Positions 5,584-23,237 of a stretch of DNA of 23,278 bases are shown one piece after another. Source of the DNA: a virus. The stretch's first letter is position 1. Each line of letters begins with the position of its first letter. The position numbers and the translations under genes were made by a program. The notes under the pieces were generated by a model. The model was not told the DNA's origin and did no database searches. It saw only the letters and a program-made list of their open reading frames with translations. The stretch covers positions 1 through 23,278 of IMG/VR virus record IMGVR_UViG_3300034407_002564; one strand, written 5' to 3'.

Positions 5584-7704
5584 CTAGTCTTCAAAGAAGT
5601 CAGGGTCAATTGCGACTATACGTTTCATTGGCCTACCTGTAGATTTTGTACGCACACTCTTTTCTTGTATCTCTCCTGCGTTCATTAATCTATTTATAAT
5701 CTCTTTGACCTCAAACGACTTCATTGATCTAAATATTTCTCTTCTATCAATATCCCTTCTACTGATACCTATTTCGCCTTGCGTTCTGATGAAACTCAAG
5801 ACTTGTTTTATTCTGCTTTCCATCTCAGAACCGGCCACTTTATCTTCACATGTATCAATCATTATCTGATCGTAATAATTGACATAATTAATAGCCCACT
5901 CTGTCATTTCACTTGATATGGTCTTAGCGTTTGGATTTTCTGCTAGTTGGCATATCAAAGCTAAACGCATGGCTTTTTCTTTTGTCCTGGATAAAAGAAC
6001 TTCTAATCCGTCTTTCTCTAGTTTGTCTTGTTGCTTAATTAAATCGTGAGCAAGTACATTCAATAAGTCTAACGAACTTTGGTCGAACTTCACGACTCTT
6101 TGTTTCATATCTAATTCTGAATTATTGATTGCCATCTGCTCCATTTCATTCATTGGTTGTCTTATTCGTCTTATCCATTCGCATACGTCGTAATCAGGTT
6201 CGCTGTAAGATACAAGTCTACCAACCGATCTAGGTAACTTTGATTCCACAACAATAAATCTATTCAAGAAACCATCTACAATACGACCAGTAGATAAAGC
6301 ACCATAAAAGTTACGTGGTACTGACATACCTATCAAAGTAATTGCAGGTTTGATTGTAGAGCGATCCATAGCCTCCTGTTGCTGTTTTGCGGTCAAAGTC
6401 ATCAAAGAGTAGTTGTCAGGTCTTAAAGTGCCGTGACAGCGACCCCAGGACTCCATAAGGACCTGTAGAGCGTCTTCTTTGTTTGAATTAGAAGCTTTTG
6501 CAATACTTTCTAATCTTTTACCGAATTCATCCATCACAGTTATATGTGTTGGTTTATGTCTAAGTAAACTATAAACAGCACCCGAACTGGTGTATCCATC
6601 ACCTGCCATAATGTCAGCGTGTCCTGATGCGTCTAATATTGATTCTATTGTAGTTTTTACGTTCTCTTTACCTTGTCCTGATTTTGCAATACACATAAAA
6701 AACAAAGATGAAAAGTTATTCATATCTGTTCTATATATACGACCAAGTGCGACAGAGCCAAAAGCCAATGCAGTTTGCATTGATAATGCAGGTTGCTGTA
6801 TGTGTGCGATTCTTTTTGAATACTCAAATACTTTTTTAAGAATACCTGGAGGATCATACAAGTCTTTCGGTTCTTTTATTGAGTATTGACTTTTCTTAAA
6901 TAATGGTGCTTGTTGGTTTTTTCTTTGATGGGTTTTGAGTATTGAATTTACGGTAGTTGATATTTCATTCTTTGATAATGGTGGTTTGTTTTGTAGATTC
7001 CATTGCTGAACAAAAAACTCAACCATTTCTATACTGACACCTTTAGCAATTAAGTTACCTGCCAATCTAGCTGCATTGTCATTACGACTGCCTTGAACCA
7101 CACCATCCATTGAAAATGGAGTAGATATTGGTTTGCCATTTATCTTTTCAGCACCTGTTATCTGTATCCAGTTCTCTTTTGTAAAGTCAGGTAAGTCGCT
7201 AGTGTTATGCCAATCCCACCCAGGGATGAATTTAGGTTCGTATATCGCACCAGTAGCATGTATGTTGTATGGTGCAATTATAAGACCGCCTGTACCTCTT
7301 ATATCAATTAACTTTGCAGGGTCAGACGTGTTGGTTCTTCTAGCTACATAAGTAGTATAGTTTTCTGGGTTATTATAGTAATAGTGCATACCCTTACCAG
7401 TAACAACCTTACATGGAGTGTTAGGTAAGTTTTCTTCTGCCCAATTGACAGCTTCTGGTGTGTCAGCATCTACAACGATAAATTTACCGCATATCAAAGC
7501 AACAACGAGATCGTCACGACCTTTAAACCATTTCGTTACTTGTTCTTCACTTGGAGGTTGCTCTTTAAATTGTTGCCAACCGCCTAATTCTTTTGGCGGT
7601 ACTTTGTTATGTCTCAATAAAGGTACAGGCTTATAGCCATGTTCCAGATAAGCGAGAGCAAGATCCAACGCAGTATCCTGCGCAGTTACCTCTATGTTAA
7701 GCAC
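5584..7704 (-). CDS. Bifunctional primase-polymerase / helicase, 706 aa
   Basis: The N-terminal prim-pol domain (about residues 10-160) shows the metal-binding pair D79-x-D81 in VVDADT, H107 in GKGMHYYY, and D134 with RGTGG. A PriCT-1-like helical domain follows at about 200-262 (RNDNAARLAGNLIAKG). From about 290 to 560 there is a P-loop ATPase with a Walker A variant (AKSGQGKEN, about 340-348) and a Walker B-like DEF at 392-394, as in phage helicases of the DUF3987 type. The C-terminal 70 residues look like a winged helix. The protein probably makes primers and unwinds the fork. It starts with GTG, sharing one base with the previous stop (TAGTG); no ATG precedes the conserved domain. It is the main evidence that the phage encodes its own replication initiation. 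Confidence 0.88.
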   Translation of the reverse strand: MLNIEVTAQDTALDLALAYLEHGYKPVPLLRHNKVPPKELGGWQQFKEQPPSEEQVTKWFKGRDDLVVALICGKFIVVDADTPEAVNWAEENLPNTPCKVVTGKGMHYYYNNPENYTTYVARRTNTSDPAKLIDIRGTGGLIIAPYNIHATGAIYEPKFIPGWDWHNTSDLPDFTKENWIQITGAEKINGKPISTPFSMDGVVQGSRNDNAARLAGNLIAKGVSIEMVEFFVQQWNLQNKPPLSKNEISTTVNSILKTHQRKNQQAPLFKKSQYSIKEPKDLYDPPGILKKVFEYSKRIAHIQQPALSMQTALAFGSVALGRIYRTDMNNFSSLFFMCIAKSGQGKENVKTTIESILDASGHADIMAGDGYTSSGAVYSLLRHKPTHITVMDEFGKRLESIAKASNSNKEDALQVLMESWGRCHGTLRPDNYSLMTLTAKQQQEAMDRSTIKPAITLIGMSVPRNFYGALSTGRIVDGFLNRFIVVESKLPRSVGRLVSYSEPDYDVCEWIRRIRQPMNEMEQMAINNSELDMKQRVVKFDQSSLDLLNVLAHDLIKQQDKLEKDGLEVLLSRTKEKAMRLALICQLAENPNAKTISSEMTEWAINYVNYYDQIMIDTCEDKVAGSEMESRIKQVLSFIRTQGEIGISRRDIDRREIFRSMKSFEVKEIINRLMNAGEIQEKSVRTKSTGRPMKRIVAIDPDFFED

Positions 7705-8042
7705 TAGCTTTCTTTCTTAGTTTCGTCTATTGGCCCGTAGATAGATTCAAAATCTAATTTACCGCCAGTATTCTTTATTATGATTTTTGCTTGCTTGATG
7801 GAGGGTTGTCTTCTGCCATACCTATATGCTTTTGCAGTTCCAGGAGTACATTCAAAAAGTTTTGCGGCTGCCTCCGTACCCATAAATTCTATGTATTGTC
7901 TCAACGTGTATCTTTGCACCTCTCTCTCCTTATATTCAGGTTCAAATCCCTCTTGGTAAAGGGTCTTGAGTATTTCAGTTGATAATTCTTTCTGCCTAAA
8001 ATAATAATTTGTAATCCATTGTTTGTTTTTTGTTTTGTTCAT
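7704..8042 (-). CDS. Helix-turn-helix DNA-binding protein (Cro/XRE-like), 112 aa
   Basis: Residues about 48-85 form a helix-turn-helix: QYIEFMGTEAAAKLFECTPG, then a recognition helix with TAKAYRYGRRQPS. The basic turn resembles Cro-like phage repressors, with K-Q-A-K-I-I closing the domain. The N-terminal 45 residues are charged and may dimerise or bind a partner. It is the first gene of the leftward replication unit and sits beside the divergent control region, which carries a 7-bp inverted repeat (8058-8088). The usual inference is a regulator of both divergent units, perhaps an autorepressor. Its stop overlaps the GTG of the primase. It could instead be a replication initiator that binds an origin in the same gap. 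Confidence 0.75.
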   Translation of the reverse strand: MNKTKNKQWITNYYFRQKELSTEILKTLYQEGFEPEYKEREVQRYTLRQYIEFMGTEAAAKLFECTPGTAKAYRYGRRQPSIKQAKIIIKNTGGKLDFESIYGPIDETKKES

Positions 8043-9366: not shown

Positions 9367-9546
9367 TAACCACACGGCTCGCTAGGAGTCGAAAGAGATA
9401 CGTGTTTCTCCATACCCTAAATCATCACACTATCTCAACCTAGCAGATGTACCTTATAGCTAGAAAAGGCAACTCCTATAGCCTTTATTGAGCAACTTTG
9501 GTGCAGTTGTCTAGCAAGACGCACCTTTTTTTACAAGGAGAGATGT
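9367..9546 (+). other. Structured non-coding leader with several stem-loops
   Basis: No gene fits this 180-base gap inside a rightward operon. It holds four potential stems: CGGCTC/GAGTCG (9375-9391, one G-T pair, right after the stop), AAAGGC/GCCTTT (9465-9486), CAACT/AGTTG (9493-9509) and GGTGC/GCACC (9500-9525) before a T run. The last two share bases, so they exclude each other. It may be an attenuator or a processed RNA. I found no tRNA cloverleaf. Confidence 0.45.
9500..9532 (+). terminator. Rho-independent terminator candidate inside the operon
   Basis: GGTGC (9500-9504) pairs with GCACC (9521-9525), and an inner GTC/GAC pair extends the stem across a bulge. Seven T residues follow (9526-9532). 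The hairpin lies between the DUF669 gene and the resolvase-like gene, so it would cut or modulate expression of the downstream genes. An upstream CAACT/AGTTG stem would disrupt it. Confidence 0.55.
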
Positions 9547-9888
9547 ATCAAACCAAGTTCAGCAAAAGCAAAAGGCAGACTACTACAACAGAAGTTCAGA
9601 AATATGTTAGTAGATCTTCTTGGACTTGACGAAGATGATCTCGAAAGTCGCCCGATGGGGAGTGCTGGTGAAGATGTAATAATGGGTAAGCAATCCAGGG
9701 ACAAGTTTCCATATTCAATTGAATGTAAAAATCAAGAGTCTATAAATCTTTGGAAAGCCTACGATCAGGCATCAAAAAACTGTAAAGGATATGAGCCTTT
9801 AGTTGTCCTCAAAAGGAATCGAAGTAAAGTATTGGTTCTTTTAGATGCAGAATATTTTGTAAAACTGCATAATAACAAAAATGGATAA
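9547..9888 (+). CDS. Holliday-junction-resolvase-like PD-(D/E)XK nuclease, 113 aa, atypical start
   Basis: Counting from codon 9547, the reading frame gives IKPSSAKAKGR, then a helix, a PMGSAGEDV motif with D43, and SIECKNQE with E59-C-K61. This is the layout of a phage resolvase-like PD-(D/E)XK family whose N-terminus is normally KPSSAKAKGR (recalled, not searched). No ATG, GTG or TTG lies in frame upstream near the Shine-Dalgarno. The first in-frame ATG is at 9604 and would remove the conserved N-terminus. GGAG at 9537-9540 is six bases before ATC at 9547, so initiation at ATC, or a +1 shift from the out-of-frame ATG at 9543, is suggested. The end overlaps the next gene by eight bases. Likely role: processing of branched replication or recombination DNA. 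Confidence 0.75.
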   Translation: MKPSSAKAKGRLLQQKFRNMLVDLLGLDEDDLESRPMGSAGEDVIMGKQSRDKFPYSIECKNQESINLWKAYDQASKNCKGYEPLVVLKRNRSKVLVLLDAEYFVKLHNNKNG

Positions 9889-10804
9889 TCATTTAATTGA
9901 AAATTATTGGGAGCATCAAGAAGAAAAGATGTTCCTTCCAAAGAAGTTTGATTGTCCTGCATTGATTAGTTTTAGTGGTGGCAGAACGTCAGGCTATTTA
10001 CTGTATAAAATTTTAGAAGCATACGATGGGGTGCTTCCTGAAGATGTGCATGTTGTATTTGCTAATACAGGTAAAGAAATGGTACAAACTTTGGATTTTA
10101 TTAACGATTGTGCAAAAAACTGGAATGTAAATGTTAGGTGGTTAGAGTTAGACATACATGAAGAACGGCCAATTTATCGAACTAAAGAAGTAACATACGA
10201 AACAGCCAGTCGTAATGGTGAGCCGTTTGAAGCATTAATTAATAGAAAAAAGATGCTGCCAAATCCAGTTGCCAGGTTATGCACAATGGAATTAAAAATT
10301 GGTGTGATGAATCGTTTTATGAGATCACATGGATACAAGAGATGGGCGAATGTGATTGGATTAAGATATGACGAACCAAGAAGAGTATCTAAATCTGTAA
10401 AACAAAATGAATCAGGAAAGAACAAATACGAGTCATTAGTACCATTGTTTGATAATAAAGTAATGGTTAAAGATGTAGGTGATTTTTGGAGAAACAACGA
10501 TTTTGATTTGAATTTACCAAATCATAACGGCAAGACTTTAGCTGGAAATTGCGATCTTTGTTATCTCAAAGGTCAAAAAACATTGATTAAAATTATAAAA
10601 GAGAAACCAGAACTTGCTGATTGGTGGATAGAACAAGAGAGAAAATTACAAACATCTGCACAAAAAGAATTAGGTAGAGATGCTTATACAGCAAAATTTA
10701 GAAAAGACAGCAGCTACGTAGAGTTAGTTGAGTTAGCCAAACTTGATGCCAAACAAATAGAAATGTTTGAGGATGATGGTAGAAGTTGTTTCTGCCACGA
10801 CTAG
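9881..10804 (+). CDS. PAPS-reductase-like PP-loop protein, 307 aa
   Basis: A PP-loop SGGRTSG sits at residues 32-38. VVFANTGKE follows, then RLCTMELK, the Cys-Thr motif typical of phosphoadenosine phosphosulfate reductase-like enzymes. Three further cysteine sites, CDLC and the C-terminal SCFCHD, could hold an iron-sulfur cluster or zinc. Family members activate a substrate with ATP; in phages the substrate is unknown, and options include sulfate reduction, DNA or tRNA thiolation, or nucleotide metabolism. No dnd-type partner genes are visible, so a phosphorothioation role is not supported here. It overlaps the resolvase-like gene by eight bases. Its start has a weak Shine-Dalgarno, and M17 at 9929 is an alternative. 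Its stop overlaps the stop of the converging DUF3310 gene. Confidence 0.8.
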   Translation: MDNHLIENYWEHQEEKMFLPKKFDCPALISFSGGRTSGYLLYKILEAYDGVLPEDVHVVFANTGKEMVQTLDFINDCAKNWNVNVRWLELDIHEERPIYRTKEVTYETASRNGEPFEALINRKKMLPNPVARLCTMELKIGVMNRFMRSHGYKRWANVIGLRYDEPRRVSKSVKQNESGKNKYESLVPLFDNKVMVKDVGDFWRNNDFDLNLPNHNGKTLAGNCDLCYLKGQKTLIKIIKEKPELADWWIEQERKLQTSAQKELGRDAYTAKFRKDSSYVELVELAKLDAKQIEMFEDDGRSCFCHD

Positions 10805-13453: not shown

Positions 13454-13702
13454 ATGGCTAGATTTACAGATAACACGATATATAATGAAATGATAATGTC
13501 TATCATTGGTTTATTTGCCAAACTTGATTTAGAAACTCAAATAACTACTGTTAAGACATTGGCGCAAACGATTGAAAGACAACACAATATCAGTCAAATG
13601 GAGCGTGAATCTCTGGAAGAGCAAGAACATTTACTGCAACAGCAACACGAAATGATGCAAGCATTGTCTGATTTGGAAGAGAAATCAGGTTTATATAAGT
13701 GA
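13454..13702 (+). CDS. Coiled-coil small protein, 82 aa
   Basis: The N-terminal third contains a short hydrophobic helix (MIMSIIGLFAKL). The C-terminal half is a Q/E/H/L-rich coiled coil (EEQEHLLQQQHEMMQALSDL). GGAGG lies six bases before the ATG. The stop overlaps the GTG of the cytosine methyltransferase by four bases, so expression is coupled. A role as an adaptor or oligomerisation partner for the methyltransferase is possible but is inference only. Confidence 0.6.
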   Translation: MARFTDNTIYNEMIMSIIGLFAKLDLETQITTVKTLAQTIERQHNISQMERESLEEQEHLLQQQHEMMQALSDLEEKSGLYK

Positions 13703-14979
13703 AACCTAAAGTAGTTTTAAGTTTATTTGATGGTATGTCTTGCGGTCAGATTGCTCTGAATCGTTTAGGCATACCAATCAAAACATATTACGCATCAGAA
13801 ATAGATCCGTATCCAATCAAAGTTACCCAAGCAAACTATCCAGATACAATACAGTTGGGTGATGTCAGGGATATATCCTTGAAATCATTACCCGAAAAGC
13901 CTGATATTATACTGGCTGGTTCGCCTTGTACTGGATTTAGTTTTGCAGGTAAGAGATTGGCTTTTGATGATCCGCAATCGGTATTGTTTTTTGAGTTTGT
14001 CCGTTTACTAAAAGAGATCGAACCAGATTGGTTTCTCTTGGAGAACGTCAAAATGAAAAAAGAGTATCTAAATGTGATTACAGAACATGTAGGTGTTGAA
14101 CCCATACTTTTGAATAGCGCGTTAGTCAGCGCACAAAACAGATGGAGATACTATTGGACAAACATTCTAGGAATCAACGAACCCGAAGATAGAGGTATTG
14201 TACTTAGGGATATATTGGAAACAAATCCTGATAATTTTACGTTGATGTCCAGTAAATTTGTTACTAGAAAAAAAGATAGGAAATGTTTGATTGGTAACGA
14301 ACAAGAGAAAGCAAAGACTTTCAGCGCGATGGAATATATAAAGAATGGCAGACAAGGCGATTATATTGCGTGTGATGAAGATGGAAATACTAAGAGATTA
14401 CATAAACCCAAGCAAGTAGGAGTGGCTGCTGAGATAAATGGTCACGATATTTTGAAACGAGTGTACTCTCCTGACGGAAAATCGCCTACTTTGAACAGTT
14501 GTTCGGGTGGAAACCGAGAACCGAAGGTCGCAATCTATCAGAAACCGCGTAGCACAAACAAAGGTGGTATTCGAGCAAAAGACGGCAAAACCCCTTCACT
14601 TACATCAAGTTCTTGGCAAGAAAATAATTTATTGGTAAAAGCTGGTGCGATACGCGGTAGATATAACGGAGATGGAACTACCTATCAAAAACTTGAAATT
14701 AAAGATGATGGTAAGAGCAACACGCTGACTACTGTTGAGAAAGATAATGTATTGGTAGATTCCGAAATGCGTTGGCGTAAACTGACCCCGATTGAAGCTG
14801 AACGCCTACAAACAGTTGATGACAATTATACCGCGCACGTCAGTAACAGTCGTCGTTATCACATGTTAGGGAATGGTTGGACGATAGAGATTATCTGTCA
14901 CATATTAAAAAATATGGTGATTGTCGAGCAAGGTGGCGAGGTAGAGGATAGAAAAGGACAAATCGGGTTTGAATTTTAA
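13699..14979 (+). CDS. DNA (cytosine-5-)-methyltransferase, 426 aa
   Basis: All the core C5 motifs are present: motif I LFDGMSCG (9-16), the catalytic cysteine C77 in GSPCTGFSF, ENV (115-117), QNR (146-148) and the C-terminal RRYHMLGNGWT of motif X. The enzyme transfers a methyl group from S-adenosylmethionine to cytosine in its target site. The target-recognition region (about 230-350) holds three related DGKS/DGKT stretches (DGKSPTLNS, DGKTPSLTS, DGKSNTLTT), an internal repeat seen in similar phage enzymes. Translation starts with GTG overlapping the previous stop. No cognate endonuclease is visible, so the likely role is protecting phage DNA from restriction or marking it. Confidence 0.9.
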   Translation: MKPKVVLSLFDGMSCGQIALNRLGIPIKTYYASEIDPYPIKVTQANYPDTIQLGDVRDISLKSLPEKPDIILAGSPCTGFSFAGKRLAFDDPQSVLFFEFVRLLKEIEPDWFLLENVKMKKEYLNVITEHVGVEPILLNSALVSAQNRWRYYWTNILGINEPEDRGIVLRDILETNPDNFTLMSSKFVTRKKDRKCLIGNEQEKAKTFSAMEYIKNGRQGDYIACDEDGNTKRLHKPKQVGVAAEINGHDILKRVYSPDGKSPTLNSCSGGNREPKVAIYQKPRSTNKGGIRAKDGKTPSLTSSSWQENNLLVKAGAIRGRYNGDGTTYQKLEIKDDGKSNTLTTVEKDNVLVDSEMRWRKLTPIEAERLQTVDDNYTAHVSNSRRYHMLGNGWTIEIICHILKNMVIVEQGGEVEDRKGQIGFEF

Positions 14980-15814
14980 AACTAACAGAACTTTGTATGG
15001 CGATTGCCGAGAAACATTAAAAGAATTGCCAGAGCAATCCATTAACACCTGTATCACTTCACCGCCTTATTGGGGTTTGCGTGATTATGGAACTGGTGGT
15101 CAATTAGGTTTGGAAGATACGCCAGAAGATTTTGTTGAAAACTTAGTTAAGGTATTCAGAGAAGTAAAACGAGTGTTGCGAGATGATGGCACAGTTTGGC
15201 TTAACTTAGGTGATAGTTATTACAATTACAGACCGGGCAAAGGTCAGGCATTGATAAAACAAACTGTCAGTAACACGAATCAAGATTTACCTCAAGAAGT
15301 GGCAAGGCGAGCCAACAAGATTGACGGATTAAAAGAAAAAGATTTAGTTGGCATACCTTGGCGAGTAGCGTTTGCTTTACAAGCTGATGGTTGGTATTTA
15401 AGACAAGATATTATCTGGCATAAACCTAATCCGATGCCAGAGAGTGTGCAAGATCGTTGTACTAAATCACATGAATATATTTTTTTGTTAAGTAAAAACC
15501 CTAAATATTATTTTGATAATGAAGCGATTAAGGAAGATGCCGAGCCAGAAAAGCGCAACAAAAGATCAGTATGGACTATTACTACTAAACCATTTAAAGG
15601 CGCACACTTTGCTGTATTTCCACCTGATTTAATCGAGCCATGTATATTGGCGGGTTGCCCTAAAGATGGCGTGGTACTTGATCCTTTTATGGGTAGCGGA
15701 ACAACAGGAATGGTAGCGCAGCAATTAGGTAGAAAATGGATTGGTTGCGAGTTAAATGCCGAGTATATCAGTATGCAAAAAAATAGAACTGCTCAACAAG
15801 TTTTAGAGTTGTAA
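14969..15814 (+). CDS. DNA N4-cytosine/N6-adenine methyltransferase (beta type), 281 aa
   Basis: The catalytic motif SPPYWGLRDY is at about 31-40 and the SAM-binding motif DPFMGSGTTG is near 236-246, in the order IV then I of the beta class. IGCELNAEYI follows. SPPY is compatible with either N6-adenine or N4-cytosine methylation, so the base cannot be fixed. Translation likely starts at TTG 14969, since no ATG or GTG lies before the conserved NRTLYGDC segment; AAGGA lies about ten bases upstream. It overlaps the C5 methyltransferase by 11 bases, so both enzymes are made together. No restriction enzyme or modification-dependent nuclease is adjacent. Confidence 0.88.
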   Translation: MNFKTNRTLYGDCRETLKELPEQSINTCITSPPYWGLRDYGTGGQLGLEDTPEDFVENLVKVFREVKRVLRDDGTVWLNLGDSYYNYRPGKGQALIKQTVSNTNQDLPQEVARRANKIDGLKEKDLVGIPWRVAFALQADGWYLRQDIIWHKPNPMPESVQDRCTKSHEYIFLLSKNPKYYFDNEAIKEDAEPEKRNKRSVWTITTKPFKGAHFAVFPPDLIEPCILAGCPKDGVVLDPFMGSGTTGMVAQQLGRKWIGCELNAEYISMQKNRTAQQVLEL

Positions 15815-16445: not shown

Positions 16446-16616
16446 ATGAAGATATTAGCGAATAAAAAGATAAGAGAATCGTTGCACCCAGACATTCGGG
16501 AGTTGTTAGAGTCGGAAATGATTGTTAATATTGCTACTACATTTCCTGGAGCAAGAGTGGTATATGCCGAAAGACACATACATAAGAAAAAGTGTAAAGA
16601 TAGAACCGACACTTGA
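16446..16616 (+). CDS. Small unknown protein overlapping terS, 56 aa
   Basis: The frame reads MKILANKKIRESLHPDIREL, then a helix, then IVNIATTFPGARVVYAERH and a basic tail. It is not in the terminase frame and overlaps its first 53 bases. The first 40 residues look protein-like, with alternating hydrophobic and charged residues and a LHPDIRELLESE helix. There is no Shine-Dalgarno, but a -10 box places transcription start just before the ATG. Function unknown. It could be a chance frame, since the basic tail comes from DNA shared with the terminase gene. Confidence 0.45.
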   Translation: MKILANKKIRESLHPDIRELLESEMIVNIATTFPGARVVYAERHIHKKKCKDRTDT

Positions 16617-17127
16617 AGAAACAGATGAAATGCCTATCGAATATCTAAATCAAGATGAAAAGCATTTAACTAAGCGACAAAGATTATTAGTTTGGAATCT
16701 TGTAAACGACCCACAATTAACGTATGCCGAGGCTGCTAAGAAGGCAGGATATAAAAATCCTATTGTTGTCGGGCGATATATGCGTAAGAACTCAACCAGT
16801 AAATATGCACATGTTCGTAGAGAATACGAGCGATTGATGGTCGAGGCAAAGAAGAAATTTGAATTAACGCATGAGAGGGCCGTTGAAGATCTATATAAAC
16901 TGCGTGATGATGCCTGGGGTAAGGGTGCATTTAACGCTGCGATTCAAGCCCAGGGATTGTTATTGAAGGTCGGGGGACTAATCGTTGATCGTCGGGAAGT
17001 ATTGCATGGGAAGATCGATCAAATGAGTCGGCCCGAAGTAGAAAGGAGACTTCAGGAATTACTCGGAGAGAAGTCGGTCGGGATTATTGAGAATAAATCG
17101 GGAACTAAAGCCCTGGAGAGCAAATAA
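16564..17127 (+). CDS. terS: Terminase small subunit, 187 aa
   Basis: Near residues 38-70 is a helix-turn-helix with KHLTKRQRLLVWNLVNDPQ followed by LTYAEAAKKAGYKN, the DNA-recognition domain of XtmA/Terminase_2-like small subunits. A long helix (ELTHERAVEDLYKLRDDAW) and KVGGLIVDRREVLHGKIDQM, then a short R/E helix, match the oligomerisation part I recall from marine phage small terminases. It would bind the packaging site and recruit the large subunit, which is not in the window. A TTG at 16522 is in frame, but the ATG at 16564 opens the natural MPKDTY start. The gene carries repeated GTCGGG motifs, and pac sites often lie within or near terS. Confidence 0.7.
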   Translation: MPKDTYIRKSVKIEPTLEETDEMPIEYLNQDEKHLTKRQRLLVWNLVNDPQLTYAEAAKKAGYKNPIVVGRYMRKNSTSKYAHVRREYERLMVEAKKKFELTHERAVEDLYKLRDDAWGKGAFNAAIQAQGLLLKVGGLIVDRREVLHGKIDQMSRPEVERRLQELLGEKSVGIIENKSGTKALESK

Positions 17128-17249
17128 TATGTCGGGAAGAAATACACTAAAAACAGAGTCGGGCATTACAGTTGAGTATGAGATAAACGAACAAGGTTTC
17201 CAGATATTCGGGGATTATACAGACAGCGAGTATCGGGAAATAATCCCGA
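16768..17249 (+). repeat. Recurrent GTCGGG / TCGGG motif in and after terS
   Basis: GTCGGG occurs at 16768, 16969, 16991, 17077, 17131 and 17158, with further TCGGG at 17098, 17208 and 17233, nearly all on the plus strand, in otherwise AT-rich DNA. ATCGGG and CCCGAT (17232-17250) form a short inverted pair. I saw no GTCGGG in the first 16 kb on visual scanning. It may be a packaging or recognition signal embedded in coding sequence. Confidence 0.5.
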
Positions 17250-17287
17250 TAGTCGCCAGTCTTGAAGTAGAAAAGAGATCAACTTAG
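17129..17287 (+). CDS. Small unknown protein, 52 aa
   Basis: The protein begins MSGRNTLKTESGITVEYEIN and ends EIIPIVASLEVEKRST; its strand-rich, acidic make-up suggests a small beta fold. GGAG at 17115-17118 precedes the ATG by ten bases, and the terminase stop is one base before the ATG. An earlier in-frame start would run far into terS. Its stop overlaps the stop region of the leftward 68-aa gene by nine bases. Several TCGGG motifs lie inside it. No family recognised. Confidence 0.55.
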   Translation: MSGRNTLKTESGITVEYEINEQGFQIFGDYTDSEYREIIPIVASLEVEKRST

Positions 17288-17485
17288 ATCGCCTTCTTTC
17301 GTTAGTATACTTCTCATAATTGATTCTACGGAGTCTACTATATCTATATATTCATCTTGCTTTTCTTCTGTCCTGTATCCTTCGTCATCATAAATTGGAT
17401 CAATTGAAGAATATTCAAGTATGTATTCAGATAACATTGCATATAGCTCTACCCATTTTTCATCTGGAACAATAATTTTACTCAT
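17279..17485 (-). CDS. Small acidic unknown protein, 68 aa, last gene of leftward operon
   Basis: The protein begins MSKIIVPDEKWVELYAMLSE and has a C-terminal helix with DIVDSVESIMRS. That IVD-VE helix resembles the 49-aa protein two genes upstream (NIVDAVERTVEMF), so the two are probably diverged copies. It begins on the shared junction cassette (CATCAGTAATCTCCTTTA on the plus strand, 17483-17500), which gives it AAAGGAG seven bases before the ATG. It overlaps the previous gene by eight bases. It lacks the KEISDE ending of its neighbours, as expected for the last gene with no further junction. Function unknown. Confidence 0.6.
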   Translation of the reverse strand: MSKIIVPDEKWVELYAMLSEYILEYSSIDPIYDDEGYRTEEKQDEYIDIVDSVESIMRSILTKEGDLS

Positions 17486-17633
17486 CAGTAATCTCCTTTA
17501 CTTTGACAATATCTTCCATATCCCAAGGTATTTCGCACCATTCTCCATTTCTACAAATATGTATTGTAGTATTTTCAATTTCATCTTCTTCAACACATAT
17601 ACCTGTAATATCTAAAATGTAAGTTTTACTCAT
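17478..17633 (-). CDS. Small acidic unknown protein, 51 aa
   Basis: The protein reads MSKTYILDITGICVEEDEIE, a beta-like middle with two cysteines, and ends DIVKVKEITDE. It is translated from ATG 17633 with AAGGAG seven bases upstream, both supplied by the repeated junction cassette at 17631-17648. The last residues KEITDE are encoded by the next copy of the same cassette. It overlaps its neighbours by eight bases on each side. No family recognised; the coupled overlaps argue that it is translated. Confidence 0.6.
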   Translation of the reverse strand: MSKTYILDITGICVEEDEIENTTIHICRNGEWCEIPWDMEDIVKVKEITDE

Positions 17634-17775
17634 CAGAAATCTCCTTAAACATTTCTACTGTTCTTTCTACTGCGTCAACTATATTAGTTTCTTCGTCAAA
17701 TTCTCCACTTGTTGAATTGGCTTGTTCATCAATATAATCAAATACTTTGTTAAAATTCTCTTTAGTTAGTTTCAT
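17626..17775 (-). CDS. Small acidic unknown protein, 49 aa
   Basis: The protein begins MKLTKENFNKVFDYIDEQAN and ends with NIVDAVERTVEMFKEISDE, a helix resembling the C-terminus of the 68-aa protein (DIVDSVESIM). Start and Shine-Dalgarno come from the junction cassette at 17773-17790, and the last six residues come from the cassette at 17631-17648. It overlaps its neighbours by 8 and 14 bases. It is probably a member of a small paralogous family of early phage proteins. Function unknown. Confidence 0.6.
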   Translation of the reverse strand: MKLTKENFNKVFDYIDEQANSTSGEFDEETNIVDAVERTVEMFKEISDE

Positions 17776-17914
17776 CAGAAATCTCCTTTACGAATATCTT
17801 ATATACATCTTTGACTTGTTCCATTGCCTTTTCGTATGTTATTTCACCTTCGTCCCATTGTTCGTAAATACGATTGATCTCAAAATGAATTGAGTCTAAA
17901 TTATTCATTATCAT
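17762..17914 (-). CDS. Small acidic unknown protein, 50 aa
   Basis: The ATG at 17914 (MIMNNLDSIHFEINRIYEQW) has AAGGAG seven bases upstream from the junction cassette at 17912-17929. An ATG at 17965 is in frame but lies inside the upstream gene without a ribosome site. The C-terminus is helical and ends VYKIFVKEISDETN, again with the cassette-encoded KEISDE. The overall EKAMEQVKDV helix is similar in position to the IVD-VE helix of its neighbours. Function unknown. Confidence 0.6.
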   Translation of the reverse strand: MIMNNLDSIHFEINRIYEQWDEGEITYEKAMEQVKDVYKIFVKEISDETN

Positions 17915-18137
17915 CAGAAATCTCCTTAATAGCTTGTCTTTTAGTTTTAAACCATTCACCGCCATTTTCTGTTGCTAATACATAGCCATAGTTTCTTGGC
18001 TCTCCATTTGGTTTCTCAAATATGTAAAAACCAATGTTAGGAAAACCGCCTTGATTCGGTTTCCATTCATTACAGTCTTTTTTATGTTGTTCAAAACCTC
18101 TACGATTATATTCTCTGCAAGTTATTACCTCAGTCAT
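17901..18137 (-). CDS. Small unknown protein, 78 aa
   Basis: The sequence begins MTEVITCREYNRRGFEQHKK and has a compact centre with aromatic and glycine-rich strands (GGFPNIGFYIFEKPNGEPRN), then GGEWFKTKRQAIKEISDDNE. The last part resembles a small DNA- or RNA-binding fold, but no family is recognised. AGGAG lies seven bases before the ATG. Its end encodes the KEISDD version of the shared junction cassette, making it the first donor in the chain of junction-linked genes. A hairpin (18168-18191) sits just upstream. Confidence 0.65.
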   Translation of the reverse strand: MTEVITCREYNRRGFEQHKKDCNEWKPNQGGFPNIGFYIFEKPNGEPRNYGYVLATENGGEWFKTKRQAIKEISDDNE

Positions 18138-18167
18138 TTACTTTCTCCTAGTTTAATAAATATAATA

Positions 18168-18191
18168 AAATCCACCATTGCTGATGGATTT
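18168..18191 (-). terminator. Hairpin with flanks shared with 22383-22405
   Basis: AAATCCA (18168-18174) and TGGATTT (18185-18191) form a seven-bp stem with a ten-base loop; minus-strand transcripts then read TTATTATATTTATT. It lies between the 94-aa and 78-aa genes. It may be a partial terminator or an mRNA-processing or stabilising hairpin. ATAATAAA and TTGATATATTCA flank it, almost as at 22377-22415. Confidence 0.45.
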
Positions 18192-18205
18192 GATATATTC
18201 ACTCC

Positions 18206-18490
18206 TTAGATAGTAATGGTTAATGGTTTGGCTAGTTCTTCATCATGTTCTTTATCTAATACCCAACTATATCTATCTACTAACTCTTGATCTGTAGATT
18301 CATAGTAATCAGACATGATGCCATCATCTCCCCAGTAGCGTAGAATCTCACATCTCCTCAATATCTCGTTTCTATTTTTCTCAGATAACGGAATAGGATA
18401 TTGTTTCCTTCTTTTTTTGATTTCCAAATCATATTTTCTTTTGGATTCTACTGGATCAAAATCTGGTATTTCATAATTTAAATCGCTCAT
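18206..18490 (-). CDS. Unknown charged protein, 94 aa
   Basis: Highly charged and helical, with MSDLNYEIPDFDPVESKRKY at the start and a basic stretch (KKRRKQYPIPLSEKNRNEIL) in the middle, then RYWGDDGIMSDYYESTDQEL. No known motif. A short gap of four bases separates it from the upstream gene, whose end provides GGAG; AGGATA lies just before the ATG. A hairpin follows the stop. Probably a small phage accessory protein. Confidence 0.6.
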   Translation of the reverse strand: MSDLNYEIPDFDPVESKRKYDLEIKKRRKQYPIPLSEKNRNEILRRCEILRYWGDDGIMSDYYESTDQELVDRYSWVLDKEHDEELAKPLTITI

Positions 18491-18494
18491 TATC

Positions 18495-18749
18495 CTAATC
18501 TCTCCCCATTACAGGGATTGTCTCCAATCCCTCAATAGAAGTAGCTAAAGAGCCACCATCGTTACCTTCATCATCTGCCATTGGGAATATCCAAGAGCCA
18601 TCAGTAAATGTGATGGCTAAAGGAAGTTTATACCACATCATTTCCTCACCTTCTTTTGGTGATAGATATTCAATCTTGGCAATGGTTTTTCCCACCAGTT
18701 CTGATGAAATCTTCTTTTCCCATCTATCAGTAGTCTTATCTTTACTCAT
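18495..18749 (-). CDS. Conserved phage protein of unknown function, 84 aa
   Basis: The centre KIEYLSPKEGEEMMWYKLPL, then FTDGSWIFPMADDEGNDGGS and LATSIEGLETIPV, resembles an unnamed small family I recall from cyanophages and marine phages, whose hallmark is DDEGNDGG followed by a short hydrophobic end. No biochemical role is known to me. AGGAG is seven bases before the ATG, which overlaps the previous stop by four bases. It sits in the operon of other small unknown proteins. Confidence 0.68.
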   Translation of the reverse strand: MSKDKTTDRWEKKISSELVGKTIAKIEYLSPKEGEEMMWYKLPLAITFTDGSWIFPMADDEGNDGGSLATSIEGLETIPVMGRD

Positions 18750-19207
18750 GCTTGTTCTCCTATCGGGTTTCCTTGCATATCAGTTAAAGTAAGATTACCT
18801 CCCTCTTTCTTATCACTCTTGAATAACCTTTCAGCTAATGATTCTCCAATCACATACTCTTTATTGGTATTCAAATCTCGGATAATAAATGGTTTCTTTC
18901 TTGCTCTCGGTTTGAAACCAACAAGAGCAATATCCATTCCATCAAGTTTGGCTATTTTATTTTGATCAAGCATTTTCCATTCCATACTATCTCTTGATTC
19001 AAGTTCATACTTTAATGCCTTTTCTGATTCTGATAATGCACCTTTTACAGATAATTTGAATCCTGTAAATTTGACTCCATCATCATCAAATCTAGCGTTA
19101 CCTAATTCAAAACTTAACCCATATTCTTTCAATATAGATGGTAGTTTCTCGTTTAAGATTTCTCTAACTAACTTTGCATTAGTTCTATTCATCTCAGTTA
19201 TTTTCAT
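18746..19207 (-). CDS. Unknown protein, 153 aa
   Basis: The N-terminus MKITEMNRTNAKLVREILNE is followed by a mixed alpha/beta centre with GVKFTGFKLSVKGALS and a KPRARKKPFIIRDLNTNKEY segment, ending in NLTLTDMQGNPIGEQA. The repeated basic patches could bind nucleic acid, but I recognise no family. The start shares one base with the upstream stop (TAATG), and its end overlaps the next start (ATGA). Part of the leftward small-protein operon. Confidence 0.65.
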   Translation of the reverse strand: MKITEMNRTNAKLVREILNEKLPSILKEYGLSFELGNARFDDDGVKFTGFKLSVKGALSESEKALKYELESRDSMEWKMLDQNKIAKLDGMDIALVGFKPRARKKPFIIRDLNTNKEYVIGESLAERLFKSDKKEGGNLTLTDMQGNPIGEQA

Positions 19208-19845
19208 TATTTTTCTCCTATGTTATTAATGAAATTTATAAAAGTTTGTTTTGGGAATTTATCATCAAGATAATATTCAGTTTTACCATTGAGTAAATCT
19301 TTGATGAAATTTCTGACTTCGTAGTCTTGCCATTCTTTTACTTTTAAATGGTAATTTGTGTGATATTCCAACAATTGTTTAATCGCATACATATCAATTT
19401 TTTTTACAAAATTAACTACCTCATCAAAATACATGGTATAGAGTAAATTATTCGTCACCTCTCCATAATCAAATTCATAAGTAACAGCAAATTTCCAATC
19501 TTCAAATTCAGATAAATCTTGATGACCAATACCAAGATATGCTTGTTGTCTACCTTCTAGTGTTGGGTGATTAATCCATATCTGATAACCATTGTGAGAG
19601 AAACTTGGTAATTCATCATTACCATAAGATACATTTTCCCATTCATCAGGAATATCTAAGTATCTGTAATAATCTTCCCAAGTGAGTTTTTTCTGATAAT
19701 CTAACTCATCAAGTAACTCTTCATCAGTATAGTAATTAACACATTGAAGGCATAATTCATAACCCATTTGCTCTTGGGTATTATTTTCGTCTTCAAATTT
19801 GCCACACAATACACATTCTGATTTGCCACTAGGTATAGTTCTCAT
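19207..19845 (-). CDS. Unknown protein with N-terminal zinc-finger-like cysteines, 212 aa
   Basis: Residues 10-36 hold CVLCGK and CLQCVNYY, two CxxC pairs about 20 residues apart, consistent with a zinc knuckle. The rest is aromatic and acidic with long helical stretches (KKLTWEDYYRYLDIPDEWEN, then a Y/D/E-rich region) and no recognisable catalytic motif. The start shares one base with the upstream stop (TAATG), with GGAG nearby. It could recognise a nucleic acid or host factor through the zinc finger, but this is only a possibility. Confidence 0.65.
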   Translation of the reverse strand: MRTIPSGKSECVLCGKFEDENNTQEQMGYELCLQCVNYYTDEELLDELDYQKKLTWEDYYRYLDIPDEWENVSYGNDELPSFSHNGYQIWINHPTLEGRQQAYLGIGHQDLSEFEDWKFAVTYEFDYGEVTNNLLYTMYFDEVVNFVKKIDMYAIKQLLEYHTNYHLKVKEWQDYEVRNFIKDLLNGKTEYYLDDKFPKQTFINFINNIGEK

Positions 19846-20267
19846 TATTGGCTCTCCTTCAATTTGTCAATTTCGTTTGTGAGAGCAAACATTTTTGGCA
19901 CTCCATTTTTGAGAGTATCGTAAAATGTGAATCCGTCACTATTATCATAAAACTCCCATTCAATTTCTTTATGCTCATGTATGATTGATAAATTATCTTG
20001 GATTGTTTGATATATTCGGTTTCTTAAATTATCTTCAAGCATATCTGCATAATATAAACCAAACATACATAATTGAGTTTCATCTGTTGGGAATCTCTGA
20101 CTACAATCTAATTCACCATTTGGCATTTCATACATATCATTTATTAGCCATAAGGTTTCATCTGTCAGTTTGAGATCATGTGAAAAATGCACACAACCAC
20201 CACCAGAATAAAACCAACCTAAATCGTATTTATCCATTAGATTTTTTTCTTGATCTGATATTTGCAT
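19845..20267 (-). CDS. Unknown aromatic/acidic protein, 140 aa
   Basis: The protein starts MQISDQEKNLMDKYDLGWFY and contains GGGCVHFSHDLK, then PNGELDCSQRFPTDETQLCM and an acidic, aromatic helical end. Three cysteines are scattered and do not form an obvious metal site. It shares a one-base overlap (TAATG) with both neighbours, so it is firmly embedded in the operon. No family recognised; the high content of D, E, Y and F could suit a DNA-mimic-like surface, but that is speculative. Confidence 0.6.
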   Translation of the reverse strand: MQISDQEKNLMDKYDLGWFYSGGGCVHFSHDLKLTDETLWLINDMYEMPNGELDCSQRFPTDETQLCMFGLYYADMLEDNLRNRIYQTIQDNLSIIHEHKEIEWEFYDNSDGFTFYDTLKNGVPKMFALTNEIDKLKESQ

Positions 20268-20710
20268 TATGCAATCTCCTCTGATGGCAAATTACTCAGA
20301 GCAATATCTAATGGTGTAAACTTTGTATGATAGGCAATATAATGATCGTAATTGTCGTCAGGATTATCTATAGTTTTGAGTTCTGAAACATACCACCTAT
20401 CATTTTTAAACAAGTAGATATATTCTGCAAAAATATCACTTCTAAATGCGTACATAAAATTATACTCACTATCAAATTCCTTTGCTTTGGTATCTTCGTT
20501 TCTCCAAGTATTGTAGAAACGGCTATCCTCTATTGTTTTTCCTAAAGATGAGCAATCACTTTGTTTTATTATAGATGATGCTAATTCATAACTGTTGTAA
20601 TGATTGTTTAGGATATTACCGTTGTATTCCAAATATCCATCACTATGACAATATATTGAGGATATTGATTTATCTTTATTTTCTATTGCAATTTCACTTC
20701 TTGTAGACAT
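20267..20710 (-). CDS. Conserved STRS-type protein, 147 aa, first gene of leftward operon
   Basis: The N-terminus MSTRSEIAIENKDKSISSIY continues with CHSDGYLEYNGNIL. This resembles a family I recall from phages and plasmids (S-T-R-S-x-I-x-I, then SIYCHxDGY), whose function is unknown and which is sometimes linked to anti-restriction regions. The remainder has a helical NHYNSYELASS part and an aromatic C-terminal half. AGGAG precedes the ATG, and a promoter candidate lies at 20747-20775. As first gene of a long leftward operon it is probably expressed early. Confidence 0.7.
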   Translation of the reverse strand: MSTRSEIAIENKDKSISSIYCHSDGYLEYNGNILNNHYNSYELASSIIKQSDCSSLGKTIEDSRFYNTWRNEDTKAKEFDSEYNFMYAFRSDIFAEYIYLFKNDRWYVSELKTIDNPDDNYDHYIAYHTKFTPLDIALSNLPSEEIA

Positions 20711-20746
20711 TGTTTGTATCTCCTAATTTATTTCTATTGAGGGTTC

Positions 20747-20775
20747 ATTATACATTATTTGGAAACAAAATGTAT
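20747..20775 (-). promoter_or_regulatory. Leftward promoter candidate for the small-gene operon
   Basis: On the minus strand TATAAT (20752-20747) has a weak ATACAT -35 (20775-20770) with 17-bp spacing. Transcription would begin near 20740, about 30 bases before the first gene's start codon. Only the -10 is convincing. Confidence 0.4.
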
Positions 20776-20872
20776 ACATATTAGTTAATTATTTATTCTA
20801 TATAATAGGAATACATATGAAAAATAGCATTTATCTAACCTCGTTTGGCTCTACATCTACAGAAATGAAAAT

Positions 20873-21043
20873 GTCGGGTGTCGGGTTCATCTTTAAGTGT
20901 CGGGTGTCGGGTTATCTCTTATATATAGATATAGATGATGATAGATATATATAGATAGATGATGATATTGAGATATTGTCGGGTGTCGGGTTTAGTCGGG
21001 TGTCGGGTTAATAATTAGAATCCGACAAGACCGACAGACCGAC
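20873..21043 (+). repeat. GTCGGGTGTCGGGTT iteron-like array plus inverted CCGAC boxes
   Basis: Four perfect 15-mers begin at 20873, 20899, 20978 and 20995; each is a tandem pair of GTCGGGT plus T. Three CCGAC boxes in the opposite orientation follow at 21022, 21031 and 21039. Between and after them lie ATGATAGATA-type tetranucleotide repeats (20925-20977 and 21044-21070). The 494-base gap between divergent operons (20711-21204) holds no convincing gene. The pattern suits a replication or packaging initiation region, or a protein-binding cluster. Confidence 0.75.
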
Positions 21044-21088
21044 AGATAGATAGAGACTGATAGATAGATTTATATCGAATCTAGGTAG

Positions 21089-21120
21089 CCCAGGAAATTT
21101 TTAGATCTAAAAAACCTGGG
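21089..21120. repeat. Long interrupted palindrome (CCCAGG...CCTGGG)
   Basis: CCCAGG (21089-21094) and CCTGGG (21115-21120) enclose a perfect 16-bp palindrome TTTTTAGATCTAAAAA (21098-21113), separated only by AAA and A. A two-part hairpin or cruciform could form. It lies between the repeat array and the rightward promoter at 21143. T-rich loops and lack of a downstream T run argue against a classical terminator. Confidence 0.65.
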
Positions 21121-21142
21121 TTATATATAGATAAAATCCTGG

Positions 21143-21172
21143 TGGACAATTTGTTTATTATCGTTGTATAAT
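21143..21172 (+). promoter_or_regulatory. Rightward sigma70 promoter (TGGACA-18-TATAAT)
   Basis: TGGACA at 21143-21148 and TATAAT at 21167-21172, 18 bp apart. Transcription would begin near 21179, 26 bases before the first start codon of a three-gene operon. A TAGGA ribosome site lies between. Confidence 0.65.
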
Positions 21173-21204
21173 AAAGATTCAATTAATCAATATAGGAAAT
21201 AAAA

Positions 21205-21381
21205 ATGAAAGATAAAAACGAAGTACAACTTCATCAGCAAAATAATCAGCCAGTCCAATTGGATGATTTTCGCAATCTTAAAGCGTGGCAAGATGGTTCA
21301 CTTATTAATACTGATCCGCTTGATAATATGAGTTTAAAAGACCTTAAAAAATTAGCTAAAATTTTAGAGGGGGTGAAATAA
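21205..21381 (+). CDS. Small unknown protein, 58 aa
   Basis: The frame begins MKDKNEVQLHQQNNQPVQLD, then NLKAWQDGSLINTDPLDNMS and ends with a basic helix KDLKKLAKILEGVK. No family recognised. TAGGA lies nearby upstream and a promoter sits at 21143-21172. Its stop and the next ATG share one base (TAATG), and its last three residues GVK are encoded by a junction repeated once more downstream. It is the first gene of a rightward three-gene operon. Confidence 0.62.
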   Translation: MKDKNEVQLHQQNNQPVQLDDFRNLKAWQDGSLINTDPLDNMSLKDLKKLAKILEGVK

Positions 21382-21526
21382 TGGATATTCAAAAAGTTCA
21401 AAATGAAAATGGTGGTGTAGAATATCACGTAATAGATCAAGGTATTATTCAATCTTTTTATAGTTTAAAAAAAGCAAATGAATATATAAGATATGTGCTT
21501 GAATTGTCTAAGGGGGTGAAGTAATG
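21369..21526 (+). repeat. Two-copy GGGGGTGAARTAATG gene-junction cassette
   Basis: GGGGGTGAAATAATG (21369-21383) and GGGGGTGAAGTAATG (21512-21526) differ at one base. Each encodes G-V-K-stop of one gene and the Shine-Dalgarno plus ATG of the next. GGGGTGA can pair with an unusually long part of the 16S 3' end. Confidence 0.75.
21381..21524 (+). CDS. Small unknown protein, 47 aa
   Basis: The frame begins MDIQKVQNENGGVEYHVIDQ and ends with YIRYVLELSKGVK. It looks like a small strand-strand-helix unit. The GGGGGTGAA ribosome site at 21369-21377 is an extended match to the 16S end and is reused before the next gene. One-base overlaps (TAATG) on both sides give tight coupling. Function unknown. 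Confidence 0.62.
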   Translation: MDIQKVQNENGGVEYHVIDQGIIQSFYSLKKANEYIRYVLELSKGVK

Positions 21527-21790
21527 AAATCATATCCAATATGGAATATTGTTACCGCTTGCATATATAAGGGTGCTAAATCATATGGCGTTAAAAAAAC
21601 TGGTGATGTAGAAGTAAGAATAGGAACAAGCGCGAGCAACTCTTATACATTCTTAAAGCATTCGACAACTCACCGCCAATTAGATAATGGCGATAGAGTT
21701 TATCGCTTTTATATTGACGGCAAAGTAATTAAAGAAGCGTTATTAAAAAAGGGAGCAAGCGAAGTTATAATAATGGATAAAGTTGCTTAG
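21524..21790 (+). CDS. Conserved marine-phage protein of unknown function, 88 aa
   Basis: The protein begins MKSYPIWNIVTACIYKGAKS and has the YGVKKTGDVEVRIGTSASNS segment, then a beta-rich end. I recall related proteins with a PIWN-VTACIYK start in several marine phage genomes, without assigned function. The ATG comes from the second GGGGGTGAAGTAATG junction. A strong terminator follows 24 bases after the stop, marking the end of this operon. Confidence 0.65.
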   Translation: MKSYPIWNIVTACIYKGAKSYGVKKTGDVEVRIGTSASNSYTFLKHSTTHRQLDNGDRVYRFYIDGKVIKEALLKKGASEVIIMDKVA

Positions 21791-21813
21791 ACTAACCACC
21801 ACCCCGAAACAAA

Positions 21814-21840
21814 GACCGCCAGAAATGGCGGTTTTTTTTT
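21814..21840 (+). terminator. Rho-independent terminator
   Basis: ACCGCC (21815-21820), loop AGAAAT, GGCGGT (21827-21832), then nine consecutive T residues (21832-21840). It ends the rightward three-gene operon. Confidence 0.85.
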
Positions 21841-21950
21841 GGTCGGGTCGGGTCTTATTTTTTAGATCTATTGCGCATTTAATCACGCTCTTATATATGA
21901 TGACTGATAGATATATATAAATCAGTCGGGCGGTCGGGTCGGGTCTTATT
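21841..21950 (+). repeat. Two-copy 19-bp GGTCGGGTCGGGTCTTATT repeat
   Basis: Perfect copies lie at 21841-21859 and 21932-21950, 91 bases apart. Each contains two GTCGGGT units. Each is followed by a short A/T stretch and AGATC (21864 and 21954). The GTCGGGT core is shared with the array at 20873-21009. The gap 21841-22096 contains no gene. Confidence 0.75.
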
Positions 21951-23190: not shown

Positions 23191-23237
23191 TCGGAAAAGT
23201 CGGAACAGTCGGATATGACCGACCCCCCCAAATCGGA
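23191..23237. repeat. TCGGA repeats with 9-bp period
   Basis: TCGGA at 23191, 23200 and 23209, exactly nine bases apart (TCGGAAAAG, TCGGAACAG, TCGGATATG), then an inverted CCGAC at 23219 and a further TCGGA at 23233. The gap 23116-23278 holds no gene; a TTGACA at 23261 may be the -35 of a rightward promoter whose -10 falls outside the window. Confidence 0.6.

Follow-up and report, generated by a model that had tools for sequence, protein, structure and literature searches.

An oriented GTCGGG zone beginning in the putative small-terminase gene of a family of uncultured marine phages, probably a packaging-recognition zone

The pac site of phage P1 consists of a short hexamer that is repeated in clusters within the small-terminase gene pacA, and in this respect it is similar to the zone of GTCGGG hexamers described in this paper. 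The P1 site differs in that another hexamer is used, which is Dam-methylated and covers about 160 bp in all, and to our knowledge P1 has no second cluster kilobases away. For phage P22, pac was located inside terS, and the present zone resembles it as a putative packaging-recognition sequence that lies within the small-terminase gene and is asymmetric (PMC9611059). However, P22 contains a single 22-bp site, whereas the present zone repeats a 6-bp word along about 5 kb, both within terS and past it. In SPP1, pac is formed by direct repeats at the small-terminase gene (PMC4737164). Sets of direct repeats at this gene are also present here, and the DNA-binding domain of the SPP1 small terminase resembles that of the TerS described below (structures 3zqq and 4zc3). 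Unlike the present zone, SPP1 pac is compact and located around promoters and the gene start, with repeats that are longer, fewer and of disputed specificity. The iterons of phage and plasmid origins are likewise short direct repeats beside AT-rich DNA, but the zone identified here extends inside coding genes, is kilobases wide and lies away from the replication genes.

The window, i.e., the whole stretch of DNA that was analysed, comprises 23,278 nucleotides of the IMG/VR virus record IMGVR_UViG_3300034407_002564. The following features are present:

16564..17127, + strand: putative small-terminase gene terS, 187 amino acids, carrying the first motif cluster
16768..17163, + strand: cluster 1, within terS and directly behind it, with GTCGGG at 16768, 16969, 16991, 17077, 17131 and 17158 and the variant GTCGG at 17027 and 17073
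17279..20710, - strand: small leftward genes clustered in the interval that separates terS from the array; the copies found here in relatives are on the + strand, antisense to the genes
20823..20831, + strand: box AATAGCATT, left of the array, role unassigned
20873..21009, + strand: cluster 2, the array first reported, four GTCGGGTGTCGGGTT copies (eight GTCGGGT)
21022..21043, - strand: three CCGAC boxes in inverted orientation, which read GTCGG on the - strand, limited to a few close relatives
21089..21120: palindrome CCCAGG...CCTGGG
21205..21790, + strand: small rightward operon comprising three small ORFs, preceded by a promoter-like site (21143-21172)
21842..21943, + strand: cluster 3, GTCGGG in five copies, located beyond the terminator-like hairpin that follows the rightward operon
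23199..23223: weak matches close to the end of the window, GTCGG twice and CCGAC once

An earlier note had described the array as four perfect 15-mers, each a dimer of GTCGGGT, which are followed by three inverted CCGAC boxes, embedded in AT-rich GATA-type repeats and accompanied by a large palindrome, in a 494-base gap between divergent operons. This description proved accurate. The gap separates the ORFs 20267-20710 (-) and 21205-21381 (+), and exact copies of GTCGGGTGTCGGGTT are located at 20873-20887, 20899-20913, 20978-20992 and 20995-21009, with eight GTCGGGT counted across them. GATA/ATATAG-type repeats are interspersed among the array elements, the three boxes are present at 21022, 21031 and 21039, and the palindrome has the form CCCAGG...AGATCT...CCTGGG. 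Since boxes and palindrome are not conserved in relatives (the palindrome is absent already in L010), they are local features and were dropped as parts of the signal. A box of the type AAT[A/C]GCAT[T/C], in contrast, is conserved: of 22 distinct intergenic arrays, 21 are preceded by it at a distance of 19-75 bp on the left side. In L061, a phage of the group with about 50% TerS identity, a direct repeat of about 115 bp (9492-9650) that includes a AATCGCATT box and GTCGG sits at the array position. The leftward ORF 20267-20710, which adjoins the array, matches PHROG 1987 of unknown function; cyanophages and Vibrio KVP40-like phages encode homologues.

This array belongs to a wider GTCGGG zone, of which it forms a single cluster. 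In the window, the hexamer occurs 19 times, all copies being on the + strand and within 16768-21943, and no copy is present in the first 16.5 kb. From 16564 onward, the 19 copies compare with 0.65 expected (p ~1e-21). When the pentamer GTCGG was listed on both strands, clusters were identified at 16969-17158 in terS, within the array and at 21842-21938, with almost every copy on the + strand. A literature search for the hexamer in connection with phage returned nothing relevant. The window stops short of terL. Directly to the left of terS, genes for C5-cytosine and N4/N6 DNA methyltransferases are located (13699-15814), which are missing from some relatives, and a PAPS-reductase-type gene is found at 9881-10804 amid replication and recombination genes.

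The case for the 187-amino-acid product being a small terminase is good but indirect. It matches PHROG 1595 (terminase small subunit) weakly, with an E-value of 0.0011, and is 31-35% identical to homologues annotated as terminase small subunit in the Pelagibacter phages HTVC027P and HTVC023P and in phage DSL-LC04. An alignment-based model of moderate confidence (pLDDT 61) was matched to 4zc3 with a Z-score of 5.8 and 1.7 A over 55 residues, and 2ao9, 3zqq, 6w7t and 7joq were found within the next five rows of the structure comparison; all five are small terminases. Like the solved small terminases, the model has an N-terminal helix-turn-helix (HTH) together with helices for oligomerisation. 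A single-sequence model was poor, Foldseek alone gave E-values without significance for the TerS model, and a search of solved structures with the TerS sequence found no terminase.

The earlier note had suggested looking for the array in related phages, and the array with its surrounding motif was indeed found again in dozens of related marine contigs. An exact search of IMG/VR for the 15-base repeat matched 104 stretches, many of which are marine contigs with a homologous intergenic array of varying copy number and spacing. A search with the TerS protein, blind to the motif, identified 80 loci. At a TerS identity of at least about 68%, almost every locus has GTCGGG at or close to the top of the hexamers downstream of terS, and in the group of about 50% identity it has this rank in most of those with enough downstream sequence; upstream of terS it is close to absent in the 80 loci. 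The motif is mostly retained down to about 50% TerS identity, and it is absent in the relatives of 31-35% identity. It is conserved with the terminase lineage, as is expected for a pac-type site.

For a pooled set, 31 non-redundant records were used, which, like all the relatives, are metagenomic or single records lacking reads and an assigned host; about one third had entered via the motif search and the rest via protein similarity. Here, GTCGGG heads the list of all 4096 hexamers by a wide margin between terS and +5.5 kb, with 364 copies inside the zone versus 24 in the remaining, four times longer sequence, and the reverse complement is present twice inside and 22 times outside. The zone edges are sharp at terS and at about +5.5 kb, with counts near zero across 16 kb on either side. 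In G012, G066, G067, G068/G069, G070 and G047, few copies lie outside the stretch that leads from terS in the direction of terL; apart from G070, each of these records has an identified terL, which lies to the right of the motif zone. The zone accordingly starts in terS and ends before terL, the position expected for a pac-type site, and the ratio of 364 forward to 2 reverse copies is an asymmetry able to set a direction. In five contigs with replication genes that end before terS (G045, G049, G050, G051 and G053), a single copy was found in about 119 kb. The relatives carry both the packaging and the replication module, and no gene swap separates the two.

The motif is selected as DNA, independently of the direction of transcription. 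In 29 terS genes, 143 copies were counted, compared to a mean of 19 and a maximum of 28 in 300 codon shuffles; these copies use all three reading frames, and the copies in the terS coding sequence are the most invariant ones. In the leftward genes, GTCGGG is present 46 times on the antisense strand versus 12 in shuffled sequences (maximum 19), while the + strand genes to the left of terS contain 4 copies versus 6 in shuffles. The use of three frames, the excess over codon shuffles and the constant strand across leftward genes imply that GTCGGG acts as DNA. Because copies antisense to leftward transcription are nevertheless in excess, a role as RNA, or as operator for the whole set, is unlikely. 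An RNA element was also dismissed on the grounds that no Rfam family is present in the window and that the motif strand is independent of transcription. In several relatives, the tail of TerS contains a motif-encoded Ser-Gly (AAGTCGGG encoding Lys-Ser-Gly), an indication that the protein sequence has accommodated the DNA signal.

Location, polarity, multiplicity and selection at the DNA level fit with a packaging-recognition zone. The most likely function of GTCGGG is to tag the DNA of the phage as the one to be packaged into capsids, and the zone is probably a distributed, directional recognition zone that is read by terminase. It would consist of repeated one-way hexamers, from terS through the array to about 5.5 kb past the terS start. 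In the simplest case, a TerS ring with its many HTH domains would bind several hexamers at once, GTCGGGTGTCGGGT being a predicted candidate target for the 187-amino-acid protein. Such a ring makes repeated sites a natural target, as has been discussed for PaP3 and lambda (PMC7672466). By binding several hexamers, terminase would pick phage concatemers out of the host DNA, and the shared orientation of the hexamers would direct packaging to the side where terL and the structural genes lie. We infer that TerL would then make the first cut in or near the zone and that packaging would proceed by a headful mechanism.

Several observations count against the packaging reading. The most serious one concerns TerS itself: after the start of its HTH, the main clade and the 50% clade diverge strongly while the motif is unchanged, and this variable stretch should presumably hold the recognition helix, so that clades sharing one motif would differ in the helix that reads it. 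Known pac sites are compact, whereas the present copies are distributed over about 5 kb, and a minimum of the GC skew also falls in or near the zone. For SF6, the DNA-binding domain of TerS showed little specificity for its pac repeats (PMC4737164).

A variable presumed recognition helix facing an invariant motif leaves room for another reader or for a Chi-like role. A packaging signal read by TerL, or by another DNA-binding protein of phage or host, is a minor possibility: TerL is more conserved than TerS in the clade (76-85% identity to G012), but TerS is the recognition subunit where this has been studied (PMC7672466), and no specific candidate protein was found in this analysis. In a Chi-like role, which is considered unlikely, a host nuclease of the RecBCD/AddAB type would enter the unpackaged end after the first packaging cut, and oriented GTCGGG to the left of the cut would stop degradation and promote recombination. 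The same word in different phages would then reflect a shared host enzyme, which agrees with a motif that stays constant while TerS varies, as do its strict orientation and its clustering beside the terminase genes; by analogy to E. coli Chi, the orientation suits an enzyme that enters from the right. However, the rest of the genome is depleted in copies rather than enriched, and the densest and most invariant cluster is located in terS, at the far end from terL. Avoidance of type III restriction was rejected, as it accounts for the orientation but not for the local enrichment, and the copies outside the zone are balanced (24 versus 22).

The earlier note had leaned towards a replication origin and left packaging and regulation open; of these options, packaging is now the best supported, and the origin has become the weaker one. 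As iterons, pairs of GTCGGGT would be bound by the prim-pol/helicase or by an HTH protein, which would open the AT-rich repeats. The direct repeats do lie beside AT-rich repeats in a divergent intergenic gap, and in four long records (G012, G066, G067 and G069) the detrended cumulative GC skew, a plot of which the note had proposed, reaches its minimum within or close to the zone. Gene direction may equally account for this minimum: divergent operons meeting at this position predict it as well, and the skew does not decide on an origin. An origin is improbable, since the most invariant copies lie within the terS coding sequence, single copies in one orientation are scattered through genes over kilobases from terS to +5.5 kb instead of forming a compact locus, and the prim-pol and initiator-type genes are 9-13 kb away in sequence free of the motif. 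Far less probable is a function as operator, at which a phage repressor such as a 112-amino-acid HTH protein would control transcription from the divergent promoters. Promoter-like sites flank the array at 20776-20747 (-) and 21143-21172 (+), and window positions 7704-8042 resemble the PHROG 35 repressor; but such promoter-like matches are no commoner than in shuffled sequence, and the copies in terS, the antisense copies in leftward genes and the constant strand would all be left unexplained. Plain tandem-repeat noise was discarded, because the motif is also placed singly inside the genes of these AT-rich phages. Among the matches listed for a pattern of two GTCGGGT pairs, many are unrelated bacterial genomes; tandem heptamers (L189-L308) were found in Planctomycetota, cyanobacteria, Lentisphaerae and Oceanospirillales, and probably represent short tandem repeats of the ordinary kind. 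No phage satellite that borrows the motif was seen: where low-GC contigs have strong clusters, they are members of this phage family, and L062, the sole 40% GC contig without a family match, contains scattered copies only.

In four annotated distant relatives (HTVC027P, 023Pt_psg01, DSL-LC04 and HTVC023P), TerL is 58-61% identical and GTCGGG is absent. HTVC027P, 023Pt_psg01 and DSL-LC04 (TerL 60-61%) share the layout of terS and terL with repeats in the gap between them, but the words differ and their function is putative. Two of the four contain one-way motifs of another sequence in this gap. In the cultured Pelagibacter phage HTVC027P (L404, MN698241), arrays of AGCTTGA/GGCTTG with a 7-bp period are located at 16502-17738, and GCTTG occurs 25 times forward and 5 times reverse in the gap versus 4 and 51 elsewhere. 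In 023Pt_psg01, GCTCG is present in the gap 14 times forward and twice reverse, together with five copies of GGGCCCACCC, which is found nowhere else in the stretch. This gap (L442, MW574966, 9037-11511) also holds five 28-nt repeats containing GGGTGGGCCC and repeats of the CAAGCGAG type, both confined to it. DSL-LC04 has a CGGCCCA array of weak signal immediately upstream of terL, and HTVC023P has 33-bp tandem repeats after terS; in the gaps of these two phages no clear short polar motif was identified, which counts against the packaging reading. The overall repeat density of the gap is unremarkable in HTVC027P and HTVC023P, and of these two, HTVC027P alone has specific words that stand out. 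Within the family, G069 contains a TTCGGG array in the right part of the gap (7270-7370 in terS-forward orientation), a possible case of motif drift, as its terS retains GTCGGG. These parallels are suggestive, not proof. It is conceivable, though tentative, that each lineage has its own one-way word (GTCGGG, TTCGGG, GCTTG or GCTCG) across kilobases and coding genes of both strands, and that terminase reads many weak oriented sites, with word and reader drifting together.

How a small terminase selects phage DNA is an open question, and for most of the phages examined, pac was bound in vitro weakly or without specificity (PMC9611059, PMC4737164). A visible, oriented and repeated signal in and beyond terS, as carried by this family of uncultured marine phages, offers a defined sequence for studies on the purified protein. 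It also suggests a purely computational route to packaging zones and their polarity in the genomes of uncultured phages.
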